Under the pieces are notes generated by a model that saw nothing but the letters and a program-made list of their open reading frames with translations, ran no database searches and had not been told where the DNA came from. This document shows positions 44,182 to 49,638 of a stretch of DNA of 64,000 nucleotides, piece after piece. The stretch lies in IMG/VR virus record IMGVR_UViG_3300036795_000108, positions 23,222-87,221 of that record; one strand, 5' to 3'. Source of the stretch: a virus. The translations under genes and the position numbers were made by a program. Every line of letters starts with the position of its first letter. Within the stretch, counting starts at the first letter, position 1.

Positions 44182-44796
44182 TCAGCCGCACAGCAACACG
44201 ATGTGCTTCACCGAGCACAGCGCCGCGAGGATCTGCTCACCAGTCATCATCACCGCCGTGCCGGCCGGTCCGATAGGCCCCTGCGGACCAGTCAGACCAC
44301 GCAGTCCCGGCAGGCCGCGAATCCCCGGCAAGCCACGAGGTCCCGCCGGACCGCGAGGCCCCTTCTCAATGACGGTGGTCGTCGTGTCGTGCGCGATCGT
44401 CGTGGTGACGTGCTCCGCGATGGTCGTGATCCCACCGTTGGCGCTCGTCGTCGCCGGCGCGGTCGAGGTGGCGGTGCTCGTGACCGTCGAGATCGTCGGA
44501 TGCGACCCGGGTTGCGTGACGGTCGTGGTGGTTCCCGCAGGTCCCGGACGCCCCGGAGGGCCAGCAGGGCCGCGGGCGCCGCGCAACCCCGGCTTGTGCT
44601 TGACCACCACCCGCAGCCGGTTGATCTGCCGCTGCTGCCGAGCGATCATCCGCTGCGCCGACTCGACCGCGACGTGACGGGTGGGCTCCAAGGTGCGAGT
44701 GGCGACGACCGACCCGGCGATCGAAGCGGCAAACAGGACCGCCACGTACACCTTCGACGCGGGCGCGAGGAATGCTCGGGCCGCCTTGCGGATCAC
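44182..44796 (-). CDS. membrane-anchored collagen-like protein
   Basis: A 204-aa protein from GTG 44796 (GTGA overlap). One hydrophobic segment (KVYVAVLFAASIAGSVVATR) near the N-terminus, a coiled-coil-like part (RMIARQQRQINRLRVVVKHK), then two Gly-X-Y runs (GLRGARGPAGPPGRPGPAG and GPRGPAGPRGLPGIRGLPGL plus extension) separated by a Thr-rich linker. The Gly-X-Y runs would form short collagen triple helices. It may be a virion fibre or a host-surface protein expressed late. Confidence 0.7.
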   Translation of the reverse strand: MIRKAARAFLAPASKVYVAVLFAASIAGSVVATRTLEPTRHVAVESAQRMIARQQRQINRLRVVVKHKPGLRGARGPAGPPGRPGPAGTTTTVTQPGSHPTISTVTSTATSTAPATTSANGGITTIAEHVTTTIAHDTTTTVIEKGPRGPAGPRGLPGIRGLPGLRGLTGPQGPIGPAGTAVMMTGEQILAALCSVKHIVLLCG

Positions 44797-45131
44797 GGCC
44801 CTGACGGCGGCAGACCCCGTGCCGGTTTCGCAGTCACCTGAGGGATAGCGTCGCAGGACAATCTGCGCTCCTGAGCCCACGCAAGCAGATCCCGAGCATG
44901 AGCCCGCTTGTCCGCGAGCAGCAGGGCCCCCTGGTCAACCCGCTCGCGAATCACGGCACCGACAGCCGCCCCCCGGAAGTAGGTCGCCAAGCCATCCCGT
45001 GTGTTGTTGGTCCGAATGCAGGACCGCTTGTCCGTCCCCCATCCCACGGCGATACAGGCGAGGATCGCTGCGGCAAATAACACCGGGCTCCCGGGACGAC
45101 GTGTGACCAGAGAATCAGGCCAACGCTTCAT
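44793..45131 (-). CDS. small membrane protein
   Basis: A 112-aa protein (MKRWPDSLVTRRPGSPVLFA). One transmembrane helix (PVLFAAAILACIAVGWGT), then a helical, basic external or periplasmic part with two Cys. GTGA-coupled to the collagen-like gene. Function unknown. Confidence 0.55.
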   Translation of the reverse strand: MKRWPDSLVTRRPGSPVLFAAAILACIAVGWGTDKRSCIRTNNTRDGLATYFRGAAVGAVIRERVDQGALLLADKRAHARDLLAWAQERRLSCDAIPQVTAKPARGLPPSGP

Positions 45132-46089: not shown

Positions 46090-49000
46090 CTAGGAGAGCG
46101 CCGAGGCCAACTCGGCCGTAGCAGCATCATCCACCGGCGCCTCGGCGCGAACCGCCGTCCGCGAGCACTGGGGATGCTGGATCGGATTCTCGCGATATTC
46201 GCTAAGAGCCCAGACCTGACCGTTGGCCTCTCTACAATTGTGCACGATGATTCCTTCTGCGAGGTACCACCGTTGCCGCGTGGCAAGATTGTAGGTACGC
46301 CCAATAAACGCACGCTTGCGCACCTGGAAGACATTCTGCGCATGCATGAGACGGGCCATTCGATCCGCCAGATCGCTGAGCACACGGGTCTCAGTCGAGT
46401 CACCATCAGCAACCGCCTCGTCCTCGCGGGACGAGACACGCGCCATCCCCGCTCTGTTCGTGAGGAGGCCCGGGCGATCGACCTCTACCTTGACGGCGCC
46501 TCCGCCAGTGAGGTCGCCACCACCCTTGAGGTCGGCAGAGATGCCGTGGAGAACCTCATGCGACGGAAGGGTGTTCTCCGTAGCCCGAAGCAGGCCGGTA
46601 TTGTCTCCGCTGCGCGTAGCACCCCCGAGCGTCGTCTCGCTCGCGTCAGGGCCGCCCAGCATGCTTGGCGTGGTTCCCGCCAGACAGACGCCGCCCTGGC
46701 CGCCAGCGCCCGCGGACGCGAGCGGCTTGGTACGCATGGCAGCGAGCAGGAGAGCCTTCTCGCAAAGCTGTGCTACCAGCGCGGGCTCGACCTTCGCCCC
46801 CAAGTCGCCGCAGGTCGCTACAACGTGGACCTCGCTACCGACTCCATCGCCGTGGAAGTCGCCAGTACGAGTCGCCTTGCATACGAGCCCGCCCGAAGCC
46901 GCAACCTCCGCAAGATTCACTATCTCCTCGATAGCGGTTGGCACGTCATGGTCGTCTGGACGGTCTGGACTACCGGCCCGAAGACCCGCCAGCCCGTGAG
47001 CATCGCGGCAGCCGACCAGGTCGTCGCCTTCGACGAGTTCGCTCGCTCGCACCCATCCTCGCCGCGTGAGTATCGGGTGGTTTGGAGTGCAGGTGATCTC
47101 ATTGCCGTCCGACGTGGCGACTTCGACGACCTCCCCTTCGTACCACCGGGAGTAAGTCGCTCGAAGCTCCGGCGCAACAACTAGCGTCGAGCCAACGAAG
47201 CACGCCTCGTCGGACTCGGTCCCGTCGAGGATCTGCACGTGCGTCGCCCCGAGTCGCTCCAACGAATCCGTCTGCGCGCCGTTGAACGCCAGCGCCGACT
47301 CTGTGCGCGCAATCACCTCAGCGCGAGCTGCGTCGGCCTGGTCGAACACCCCCATGATCCCCGGGTAGCCCTCATCCGGGTAGCCGTTCGCGATCTGAGG
47401 GATGCTGTAGGAGCGCCTCAGGCCCTCCACGACCACATCGTCGATCGCCTGGCGAGTCGTATCGTTGACCCGGGTGACGAGCCCCGAAAGATGCTTGGCG
47501 ACCGCATCGGCGACGCTGCCCATCTCCTCCGACGTGAAGTCCGCGTTGATCGCCGCGTCGACGCCCTGCGCTGACTGGTACGCCGCCTCGCGCGCCGTTG
47601 GCTGATAGACGCCCTTCAGCGCGTCGTTCTCCTCGCCGGCGGGGAACAGATCCTTGATCGTCAGGTCATCCTTCTTCTTCTTCGGGGAGTGACGCAGCCG
47701 GGCCGCCCGGCCATTGACGTCCCCGAAGTCGCTCAGGCGGTCGATGACGCGGCCGCGCTGCTCCCGGAAGAACGAGCGGAACATCGGCTCGTACAGGTCG
47801 ACCGCCTGGCGCAGCGACACCGCCTGGGTGTCGCGCATCGACTGATGCTCGACCGGCATGTCGGCGGTCTTCAGGATCGGCTCAAAACCGCGTGGCAGCG
47901 CTGGCGGCTGCCACTCCTTCCGGGCCAGCGCCCGCGGGCTCGCCCACACCCGCGCCAGCCCCACAGCCGCATGCTTCAAACCCGGTCGGGTCGGCTCAAC
48001 CGGGGTCAACGAAACCGCCTTGCCGTCCGCTGGATCCGACGGCTCGTCATCCGAGCCGCCCCCATCACCACCATTCGCTCTCGCGAGCGCCCGCAACGCC
48101 GCGACGACCTCCAGCTGGGACTTACCCGACGCCGCAGCGATCGCGGCCGGCAGACCCGCGAGATGTTCTTCGAGCGTCGGCGTCCTGCCCGTGTTCGGAT
48201 CCGGTCCCGGCGGCAGAGCCCCAGTCCCGGTCGAACCGATCGGCGCCGCGCCACGCTCGGGGTTCGCGTCCATCGGCATCGATGTCGCCGGCCGCGGAGG
48301 CTGCCCCGCGATCTCGATCGGGATCAGGTTGTTCGGGATCAAGATCGTGTCCTGCTGGTCATAGCCGCGATCCCCGGGCTGCAACGGCGCGAGGCTCATC
48401 GCTTTGCGCGACTCGCGCATACTCGCACCCGCCCCCAGCATGTCCTTCGCATAGCCGATCCGGACCGACATCGGCTCGTTCGCCTCAGGCTCCTGGCGGA
48501 ACACCACGTCCCACAAGCTCGCCAAGCCGAGCGTCAGTCGCTCCGACGTCCGGCGGGCGCGCGGGATCATCGCCCGCAGAAAGATGACCTGGGCGTCCTC
48601 CATCTTGTAGTTCGCGTTCTCCATCAAGCCGCCCAGCATCGGCGCGGGAACCCCCCACGCCGCGAGCGTCTCATCCTTCGTGACGCCCATCAGATCCACG
48701 ACGCCCGCCGCGGCCGGCCCCTGCGTGATCGGCTTGTAATCCGTCGAACCGCCAGCGCCCGCCTCCGCGATCAGCATCTTGTACGCCGCGGAATCCCCCG
48801 CGAACTGCGACTCGTAGGTGGCCTTGAGCCGCTCGAACTGGATGTCGGACATCGTGCCCGAGATCGTCAAGACCCCCGAGATCCGCGCGCCGTTCTGAAA
48901 GAACCCCGTGATATGGCCGCCCTGCGCGACCGCGCGATCCGCGACCGACGCGATCGCCTCGACCGTCCCCATCCCGTAGTTCGGGTCCATCGGATTGGGA

Positions 49001-49638
49001 TACTTGAAGTGGATCACCTCATCCGCGTCATACGGGATCTGCAAGCCGTTCGGCATCGAGTAGACGTAGCCGCTGACCGTCCCGTCCGGGGTCAACGCGA
49101 TCTGCACCCGCTCCGGACGCAGCCGAAACAGCGACTTGGGCTGACCGATCCCGTTGCGCTCATTCTTGAGCAGGTAGTGGTTGCCGACCATCTCCAGGTC
49201 GGTCAGGATCGCCTCGATCATGTCGAAGTACGTCCACCGCGGGTTGGGCTGGTGAAGCAGCGACACGAGATCCGCGGGCGGGGCTTCGATCACCTCGCCC
49301 GTGTCGTTTACCAGCGCCCACGGGTACGCCGCAGCGGTGCTCGCGACAAGTGAGACGCACTGAAAGATCCAGGATGGCGACTGCTCCGTGCCGCCGTAGG
49401 CGCTCAGCAGCTTCGCGAGCCGCGCCGGCCCTGTGCGATACCCCGTCGCGAAGCTGTTCTCATACGACAGGAAGCCGCCTGAGAGCCCGCCTGCGGCCGG
49501 TGTGGGGGCTCCGATGCCCTTGCGGAACATCTCCATCATCTCCGGCCCGTCCAGCGTCTTGAGCGGCACGTGGCTGGGGTAGGAGCCATCCGCGCGCGGC
49601 TCGACCTGCCGACCCCGGATGCGAGACAGCCGCGCCAC
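46090..49638 (-). CDS. portal protein fused to a MuF-like domain, interrupted by an intein
   Basis: A 1182-aa precursor from GTG 49638 (TAGTG overlap). Residues ~45-450 are an HK97-type portal: PSWIFQCVSLVASTAAAYPW, YLLKNERNGIGQPKSLFRLR, IPYDADEVIHFKYPNPMDPN, WGVPAPMLGGLMENANYKME. A Gly/Pro linker (450-560) joins a MuF-like domain: VIARTESALAFNGAQTDSLE, LDGTESDEA-C-REANGQVW and HPQCSRTAV. Residues 813-1134 are an intein; after splicing the MuF Cys motif DEAC-REANGQVW is restored, giving about 860 aa. MuF proteins act in the capsid interior or as injected proteins; a portal-MuF fusion places both functions in one chain. Confidence 0.85.
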   Translation of the reverse strand: MARLSRIRGRQVEPRADGSYPSHVPLKTLDGPEMMEMFRKGIGAPTPAAGGLSGGFLSYENSFATGYRTGPARLAKLLSAYGGTEQSPSWIFQCVSLVASTAAAYPWALVNDTGEVIEAPPADLVSLLHQPNPRWTYFDMIEAILTDLEMVGNHYLLKNERNGIGQPKSLFRLRPERVQIALTPDGTVSGYVYSMPNGLQIPYDADEVIHFKYPNPMDPNYGMGTVEAIASVADRAVAQGGHITGFFQNGARISGVLTISGTMSDIQFERLKATYESQFAGDSAAYKMLIAEAGAGGSTDYKPITQGPAAAGVVDLMGVTKDETLAAWGVPAPMLGGLMENANYKMEDAQVIFLRAMIPRARRTSERLTLGLASLWDVVFRQEPEANEPMSVRIGYAKDMLGAGASMRESRKAMSLAPLQPGDRGYDQQDTILIPNNLIPIEIAGQPPRPATSMPMDANPERGAAPIGSTGTGALPPGPDPNTGRTPTLEEHLAGLPAAIAAASGKSQLEVVAALRALARANGGDGGGSDDEPSDPADGKAVSLTPVEPTRPGLKHAAVGLARVWASPRALARKEWQPPALPRGFEPILKTADMPVEHQSMRDTQAVSLRQAVDLYEPMFRSFFREQRGRVIDRLSDFGDVNGRAARLRHSPKKKKDDLTIKDLFPAGEENDALKGVYQPTAREAAYQSAQGVDAAINADFTSEEMGSVADAVAKHLSGLVTRVNDTTRQAIDDVVVEGLRRSYSIPQIANGYPDEGYPGIMGVFDQADAARAEVIARTESALAFNGAQTDSLERLGATHVQILDGTESDEACFVGSTLVVAPELRATYSRWYEGEVVEVATSDGNEITCTPNHPILTRRGWVRASELVEGDDLVGCRDAHGLAGLRAGSPDRPDDHDVPTAIEEIVNLAEVAASGGLVCKATRTGDFHGDGVGSEVHVVATCGDLGAKVEPALVAQLCEKALLLAAMRTKPLASAGAGGQGGVCLAGTTPSMLGGPDASETTLGGATRSGDNTGLLRATENTLPSHEVLHGISADLKGGGDLTGGGAVKVEVDRPGLLTNRAGMARVSSREDEAVADGDSTETRVLSDLADRMARLMHAQNVFQVRKRAFIGRTYNLATRQRWYLAEGIIVHNCREANGQVWALSEYRENPIQHPQCSRTAVRAEAPVDDAATAELASALS
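46237..47202 (-). mobile_element. intein in portal-MuF (322 aa), class 1, with antisense endonuclease gene inside
   Basis: Codons 813-1134 of the precursor. Block A CFVGSTLVVAPE with Cys1; block B EITCTPNHPILTRRGWVRAS with the T-x-x-H (T851, H854); ELVEGDDLV; blocks F and G FIGRTYNLATRQRWYLAEGI and IIVHN followed by Cys+1. Between B and F the minus-strand product is Gly/Ala/Leu-rich filler without LAGLIDADG or HNH motifs. The filler's complement is a full endonuclease gene on the plus strand (46273-47184), so the two strands share the same DNA codon for codon. Confidence 0.85.
46273..47184 (+). CDS. HTH + Vsr/EDxHD-like homing endonuclease, antisense inside the portal intein
   Basis: A 303-aa protein from TTG 46273 with CGAGGT eight bases upstream; longer frames run into the portal 3' end without a ribosome site. 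Order: basic start (PRGKIVGTPNKRTLAHLEDI), HTH 1 (HSIRQIAEHTGLSRVTISNR), HTH 2 (SASEVATTLEVGRDAVENLM), basic linker, then GSEQESLLAKLCYQRGL (Glu), QVAAGRYNVDLATDSIAVEV (Asp and Glu-Val) and YLLDSGWHVMVVWTVW (His). This layout fits the Vsr-like/EDxHD nucleases used by mobile introns and inteins. Plus-strand codons look well used. Expression from inside an opposing late operon is not explained; the alternative is a chance antisense frame. Confidence 0.75.
   Translation: MPRGKIVGTPNKRTLAHLEDILRMHETGHSIRQIAEHTGLSRVTISNRLVLAGRDTRHPRSVREEARAIDLYLDGASASEVATTLEVGRDAVENLMRRKGVLRSPKQAGIVSAARSTPERRLARVRAAQHAWRGSRQTDAALAASARGRERLGTHGSEQESLLAKLCYQRGLDLRPQVAAGRYNVDLATDSIAVEVASTSRLAYEPARSRNLRKIHYLLDSGWHVMVVWTVWTTGPKTRQPVSIAAADQVVAFDEFARSHPSSPREYRVVWSAGDLIAVRRGDFDDLPFVPPGVSRSKLRRNN

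Follow-up and report, generated by a model that had tools for sequence, protein, structure and literature searches.

Does a single stretch of phage DNA specify, codon opposite codon, both an intein and a homing endonuclease, or is one of the two reading frames merely the reflection of the other? The question is raised by a locus in a 64,000-nt stretch of an 87,221-bp virus record (IMG/VR IMGVR_UViG_3300036795_000108), referred to here as the window, in which a long plus-strand frame lies entirely within an intein encoded on the minus strand. Mobile inteins are generally thought to carry their endonuclease in frame. A first-pass annotation, made from sequence alone, had proposed that this intein and an antisense nuclease gene form a distinct mobile unit; the analysis presented here supports that proposal, with nuclease activity and homing remaining inferences.

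Architecture of the Locus

The host gene (46090–49638, minus strand) encodes an intein-interrupted precursor of 1182 aa that combines an HK97-type portal protein (PF04860, E = 8e-47) with a MuF-type head morphogenesis protein, assignments supported by PHROG portal and head morphogenesis matches. The two proteins apparently form one fused frame, and about 10 related loci are similar. Between structural genes of the window lies an ORF of 232 aa (44182–44880, minus strand) that contains a long stretch of collagen-like Gly-Pro-x repeats and possibly encodes a fibre or decoration protein.

The intein is 322 aa in length (46237–47202, minus strand) and consists of Hint halves at both ends and a disordered middle. 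Its match to PF14890 (E = 3e-8) falls slightly under the curated cut-off. In the AF2 model, the Hint halves have pLDDT values of about 90–98, residues 163–264 are below 50 and predicted to be disordered, and a Foldseek search with this model returns the RecA, RadA, and DnaB mini-inteins with a probability of 1.00. The class 1 features, namely Cys1, a block B TxxH motif, a C-terminal Asn, and a +1 nucleophile, are present in the window and in 64 nonredundant inteins with resolved ends; counts that depend on intein boundaries are limited to these 64, which have block B at +36 to +40 and include a few C termini that are still misread. On the minus strand of the window, the splicing nucleophile Cys1 is encoded at 47200–47202, block B (TPNH, residues 39–42) at 47077–47088, and the terminal His321-Asn322 with Cys+1 at 46234–46242. 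Across 50 aligned inteins, Cys1, Thr39, and His42 are invariant and Asn322 is nearly so. By its sequence blocks and Hint fold, the element is a class 1-type intein; its splicing activity is inferred. A domain search found no in-frame nuclease domain within the window intein.

On the complementary strand, a plus frame of 303 open codons runs from a TTG start to a TAG stop (46273–47184), nested 36 bp and 18 bp inside the two intein ends. The ORF, the AF2 model, family alignments, and the pattern of selection identify it as a gene for a 303-aa HTH-HTH-PD-(D/E)xK nuclease. The codon-opposite register is exact in the window, with antisense residue j lying opposite sense residue 311-j. A Shine-Dalgarno sequence, GAGGT (46261–46265, plus strand), is located 7 nt upstream of the TTG start, and a Shine-Dalgarno sequence at the start is kept in most family members. 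The window copy is atypical of its family in that it starts with TTG, lacks TATAAT at the usual position, and has Lys where the family usually has Arg214, and it could therefore be less active.

The Antisense Protein

The AF2 model of the antisense protein (mean pLDDT of 88) folds into two three-helix HTH units, a helical linker, and a helix-strand-strand-strand-helix-strand nuclease core. HTH unit 1 (residues 12–51; 46306–46425, plus strand) comprises helices 12–26, 31–38, and 42–51 and matches Pfam HTH_7 (E = 3e-9), and HTH unit 2 (residues 65–98; 46465–46566, plus strand) comprises helices 65–73, 78–85, and 89–98. The nuclease core (residues 158–230; 46744–46962, plus strand) carries the candidate catalytic residues Glu160, Asp186, and Glu195. 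In family alignments, Tyr183, Asp186, and Glu195 are invariant and Glu160 is nearly so.

The window protein matches PF18741 only weakly (E = 2.5e-4), and 41 of 65 family members match this entry. The family profile matches the catalytic domain of I-Bth0305I (3R3P, E = 6e-6 and 1e-3) and the endonuclease-like 3HRL, and its HTH part matches the Cbp1-like 2LVS. A phmmer search of solved structures with the window protein alone gave no usable match, and a Foldseek comparison of the whole model with the PDB is weak (best E = 0.03; for 3R3P, E = 0.16 with a probability of 0.80). Among viral models, the best match is a 297-aa protein (E = 2e-13), followed by phage endonucleases; this protein has the same length as the stand-alone gene described below, and the identity of the record was not checked. 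With the acidic residues Glu160, Asp186, and Glu195 on the expected core, the antisense protein belongs to the PD-(D/E)xK/Vsr-like superfamily; its activity is inferred. Homology to the I-Bth0305I catalytic domain is supported by the profile matches, the structural match being weak.

These results bear directly on the first-pass annotation. The coordinates, intein blocks, 303-aa plus frame, ribosome site, TTG start, and nesting distances that it gave were all exact, and the codon-opposite register and the assignment of two HTH motifs and a Vsr-like nuclease also held. It had further labelled the nuclease core EDxHD-like; of the E-D-x-H-D motif, only E and D are clear, and many members have GGxWH after VAVE(I/V).

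The register also places a conserved intein motif across from the active site. The motif DFHGDG (46843–46860, minus strand), which is conserved in sense alignments, is codon-opposite to antisense residues 191–196 (S-I-A-V-E-V). DFHGD faces V-E-V-A-I of the nuclease, including the catalytic-type Glu195, from which we infer that the intein motif is largely the nuclease's shadow.

Extent of the Family

A tblastn search of annotated phages with the plus-strand product matched 103 records, in most cases antisense to a head gene, in phages of Gordonia, Salmonella, Pseudomonas, Vibrio, Escherichia, and others. The loci that were fetched, AT-rich phages included, have an unbroken antisense ORF in the identical codon-opposite register, mostly with an M[APST] start. 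The family was gathered by scanning IMG/VR and GTDB with subfamily alignments; the window protein on its own retrieved nothing from viral contigs, and small subfamily alignments were required.

The family totals 244 loci and 194 distinct sequences, with GC contents of 38–71%, elements of ∼0.8–1 kb, and 0–2 HTH units per member. All but two of the distinct sequences (192/194) lie opposite a through-open sense frame, in every case codon-opposite inside an intein, and these 192 embedded elements form 170, 138, and 50 clusters at 90, 60, and 40% identity, respectively. The two exceptions (L011 and L127) represent one stand-alone gene. Counts refer to sequences rather than independent events, except where stated. 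Because the frame, the register, and the domain order recur across 192 distinct elements, chance is excluded.

So that the search was not limited to the expected arrangement, intein-only queries were also used. With the whole intein as query, the antisense gene is present in 80/80 of the best loci, and with only the first 75 aa of the intein, it is present in 79/79 new loci. These are the top-ranked loci only, and more distant inteins without the antisense gene may exist. In one of the 79 (L288), the antisense frame is split in two by a frameshift; it is the sole such copy seen and reflects either decay or a sequencing error. Among the GenBank records inspected, only two mark the antisense frame in the intein, both as "hypothetical protein"; they are XRA40086 of PK1 (L248:499–1308, plus strand) and BBO65996 of vB_StyS-sam (L247:785–1186, plus strand).

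Coding and Selection on the Two Strands

Since the codon-opposite register leaks the conservation of one protein to the other strand, each overlap was recoded synonymously (60 recodings per locus and direction, 80 nonredundant loci) and scored with profiles lacking relatives of >40% identity. When the intein is preserved, the antisense score has a median of 271 bits for the real sequence vs. 83 bits for the recodings; when the nuclease is preserved, the intein score has a median of 221 bits vs. 116 bits. The real sequence lies above all recodings in 80/80 loci in both directions, which indicates that both proteins are independently specified. Mirror-image similarity as the sole cause of the conservation is ruled out by this control.

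The first-pass annotation had reasoned that a GC-rich gene rarely makes stops on the opposite strand, and this rationale failed. The antisense frame is equally open in phages of 38–48% GC, in which sense-preserving recodings average ∼3 to 22 antisense stops, which indicates that selection keeps the frame open. A GC-driven scarcity of stops is ruled out as the cause of the open frame by these low-GC members and the recodings.

Substitution patterns provide further evidence of selection. In close pairs, changes at sense positions 1, 2, and 3 number 1272, 350, and 788 in the overlap vs. 1498, 1168, and 3246 in the exteins of the same genes; the overlap changes are thus concentrated at sense position 1, which is the antisense wobble base. 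This reversed pattern is observed in 27/27 pairs in the overlap and in 0/27 in the extein. Per site and relative to doubly silent changes, sense-silent, nuclease-changing substitutions occur at a rate of 0.27 in the overlap vs. 1.23 in the extein, and nuclease-silent, intein-changing substitutions at 0.65 vs. 0.14. Regional rates, obtained from 27 independent pairs and scaled to extein silent changes, show that both strands of the N-terminal Hint half are under constraint (sense 0.35, antisense 0.52) and that the central filler of the intein is near-neutral on the sense strand (0.93) and tightly constrained on the antisense strand (0.20). Purifying selection is therefore strong on the nuclease frame and weaker on the intein frame, and the filler is constrained on the nuclease frame only. 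The suppression of silent changes cannot be put down to incomplete divergence, as the exteins of the same genes have a normal third-position pattern.

The first-pass annotation had named three outcomes that would refute it: the lack of a nuclease fold or homologues for the plus-strand product, homologous inteins without the antisense frame, and the absence of purifying selection on the plus frame. A confident fold and homologues were both found (3R3P, 3HRL, and a stand-alone relative beside MuF), the top-ranked loci contain no intein without the frame, which is split in the one frameshifted copy, and selection on the plus frame is strong, with no such constraint in the extein.

Expression Signals Within the Intein

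Sense-silent codon choices in the intein build the start codon and Shine-Dalgarno sequence of the nuclease gene and often a TATAAT box; transcription and expression from these signals are inferred. Opposite block F (HVYNLQ), His is encoded by CAT, which reads as an antisense ATG, in 55/63 vs. 0.35 expected (p = 1e-17), and Leu by CTC, which provides the GAG of the Shine-Dalgarno sequence TTGGAGGT, in 53/63 vs. 0.27 expected (p = 4e-21). Opposite block G (GII-x-HN), an exact TATAAT occurs 28 times vs. 3.0 expected (p = 4e-18), and TATAAT with at most one mismatch occurs 84 times vs. 28.8 expected. Most of these boxes sit at one shared offset, ∼45 nt upstream of the antisense start, and the excess over expectation is greatest in GC-rich phages.

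The window has two mismatches at the family's usual TATAAT position. A TACAAT sequence at the intein/extein junction (46233–46238, plus strand) could conceivably act as a substitute −10 box; it is weak and window-specific, and its assignment is inferred. At the other end of the gene, the antisense stop codon falls inside the intein in 63/64 nonredundant inteins with resolved ends, and the element is thus self-contained.

Insertion Sites and Mobility

The element occupies several positions in MuF, mostly directly after HPxC, between INC and RC, or after TCxC, and two insertion sites are found within one phage subfamily (KMB36 vs. Snoke/BPS11Q3). The MuF region is uninterrupted in ∼770 phage records, one of which is 99% identical to the KMB36 extein, and the difference between KMB36 and Schulenburg is exactly the 894-bp intein. 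Snoke and Schulenburg are essentially identical until the last few bases before the insertion and different beyond it. Between Snoke and Salmonella phage BPS11Q3, the element is 93–98% identical in most of the windows compared, vs. 47–87% for the 5′ flank. The pattern of identity among Snoke, Schulenburg, and BPS11Q3 fits homing with co-conversion. In some cases, the discordance between element and host divergence may instead arise from slower evolution of the doubly constrained sequence rather than from transfer. An intein-less relative of the window's own allele was sought in the phage collection and not found. Together, the intein-less alleles, the several sites, and the discordant divergence of element and host are indirect indications of mobility, and homing is inferred from them.

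A few antisense-type inteins reside in hosts without a MuF match, one terminase-like (L091) and one metallopeptidase-like (L121), both with weak scores, and two with no identified match (L075 and L096), which suggests that the element reaches other genes. At a further locus (L048:3417–7607, minus strand), a portal-MuF ORF contains a Hint/LAGLIDADG_3 region after the portal part and an antisense-type intein in the MuF part.

The stand-alone homologue (L011:455–1348 and L127:3509–4256, both plus strand) is found in Acinetobacter Obolenskvirus-type phages, immediately beyond an intein-less MuF gene and in the same orientation relative to MuF. In a midpoint-rooted tree, it is nested among the antisense-in-intein forms and may thus be an escaped endonuclease, with the caveats that its branch is long and the tree was a quick one. 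It offers a natural comparison without double coding. In Escherichia phage Schulenburg, a free-standing HNH endonuclease gene directly follows the intein-less MuF gene (L246:2147–2716, plus strand) and might be another homing gene at the MuF target.

Discussion

We consider it very likely, with a probability of about 0.88, that the element is a self-contained mobile intein with an antisense-encoded homing endonuclease. The two frames, their conservation, the selection on them, the embedded signals, and the mobility pattern on which this reading rests are shown; transcription, expression, splicing, and cleavage of MuF enter it by inference. In the proposed mechanism, the sense strand would supply a class 1-type intein whose excision from MuF or portal-MuF head proteins protects the insertion, and the antisense strand would supply a site-specific homing endonuclease in which a PD-(D/E)xK/Vsr-like nuclease, a relative of I-Bth0305I, is joined to 0–2 HTH units. 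This enzyme would be expressed from signals within the intein (start codon, Shine-Dalgarno sequence, and in many copies a −10 box) and, when a second phage with an intein-less MuF allele infects the same cell, would cut that allele, with repair copying the element in. The middle of the intein would be foldless as the translation of the nuclease's complementary strand. As a speculation, antisense coding may separate the timing of the nuclease from late head-gene expression.

Three alternatives were considered. The best surviving, which we regard as unlikely, accepts a real antisense protein under selection but gives it a task other than homing of the intein in which it happens to reside, either regulation or the cutting of other DNA, such as that of competing phages. 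In its favor, the N-terminal half is mostly HTH units, many phage HTH proteins are regulators, and the nuclease part is weakly matched to solved structures. Against it, the PD-(D/E)xK-type acidic residues are invariant or nearly so, the family profile matches a homing endonuclease, the nuclease is nearly always found in inteins of one target gene type, its only stand-alone relative adjoins a MuF gene, and the intein contains no other endonuclease.

A second alternative, that only the nuclease matters and that the intein has decayed, its frame staying open merely so that the head protein is not truncated, is very unlikely. The near-neutral and disordered filler would fit this scenario; however, sense-strand constraint is evident in the N-terminal Hint half, the splicing residues Cys1, Thr39, and His42 are invariant and Asn322 nearly so, and antisense-preserving recodings cost sense score in all 80 loci. 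In addition, because the insertion falls within the conserved CxC/HPxC motif of MuF, we infer that an unspliced product would probably be non-functional. The third alternative, a mirror artefact in which the intein is the sole coding frame and passes its conservation to the other strand, draws on a real mirror similarity (the 83 bits retained by sense-preserving recodings) but is all but excluded by the higher score of the real sequence at every locus, by low-GC members whose antisense frame is unbroken where recoding introduces as many as about 22 stops, by suppression of sense-silent changes in the overlap and not in the extein, and by the stand-alone homologue outside any intein.

Beyond the antisense-encoded homing endonuclease, a bolder reading appears likely as a joint claim: that mobile inteins of this kind make up a class of their own, old and widespread, in which one DNA stretch forms two complete genes for unrelated enzymes, and that they represent living, long-lived sense/antisense coding in codon register, the intein linker being a by-product of the nuclease. 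If confirmed, this would be a new architecture for a selfish element, would account for the many MuF inteins that look endonuclease-less and carry an odd conserved DFHGDG motif, and would offer many natural replicates in which to study the maintenance of two folded proteins on opposite strands. Gene finders that bar long antisense overlaps miss real genes, and the nuclease has been hidden from annotation.

Comparison with Known Systems

The open-access literature that was searched, which did not cover subscription journals, yielded no account of an intein with an endonuclease encoded on its opposite strand. Within that literature, the homing logic is already known and the genetic architecture appears to be new. 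With inteins that carry an in-frame LAGLIDADG or HNH endonuclease, the element shares the Hint blocks, splicing that preserves the host protein, a nuclease as driver, and polymorphic presence in essential genes; it differs in encoding the nuclease on the opposite strand, under signals of its own, and in having disordered filler as the middle of the sense product.

Endonucleases of the I-Bth0305I type (EDxHD/Vsr-like; Dassa et al. 2009 and Taylor et al. 2011, via PMC3943268) are located either in a group I intron or between the fragments of a split intein. The core profile similarity to 3R3P, the PD-(D/E)xK-like active site, the phage origin, and the joined DNA-binding units are shared; the present element differs in having two HTH units ahead of the nuclease and in encoding it antisense to an intact intein. 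The arrangement of fractured genes, a split intein with a separate homing gene, is not met, as the sense frame is through-open in 192/192 embedded elements; fractured genes and I-Bth0305I supply relatives of the nuclease, not the arrangement.

The nearest published case found is the ShiLan domain (PMC11855218), an out-of-frame HNH gene inserted in a phage methylase. Both are mobile endonuclease genes overlapping a frame that continues the host gene, but the ShiLan domain uses the same strand, a shifted frame, and an HNH nuclease without a splicing domain, whereas the present element uses the opposite strand, codon register, a Vsr-like nuclease, and a full intein. Some group I introns are also known to carry homing genes antisense to the host gene; intron DNA is protein-non-coding, so no double coding is needed there.

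Opposite-strand coding of two folded proteins has so far been approached by design studies (PMC5696523, PMC8665328) and by the hypothesis of Rodin and Ohno, who proposed codon-register sense/antisense coding for the aminoacyl-tRNA synthetases (PMC4082485). Two unrelated catalytic proteins encoded codon opposite codon are common to that proposal and to the element described here; theirs is an ancestral arrangement, whereas the present one is living and under selection.
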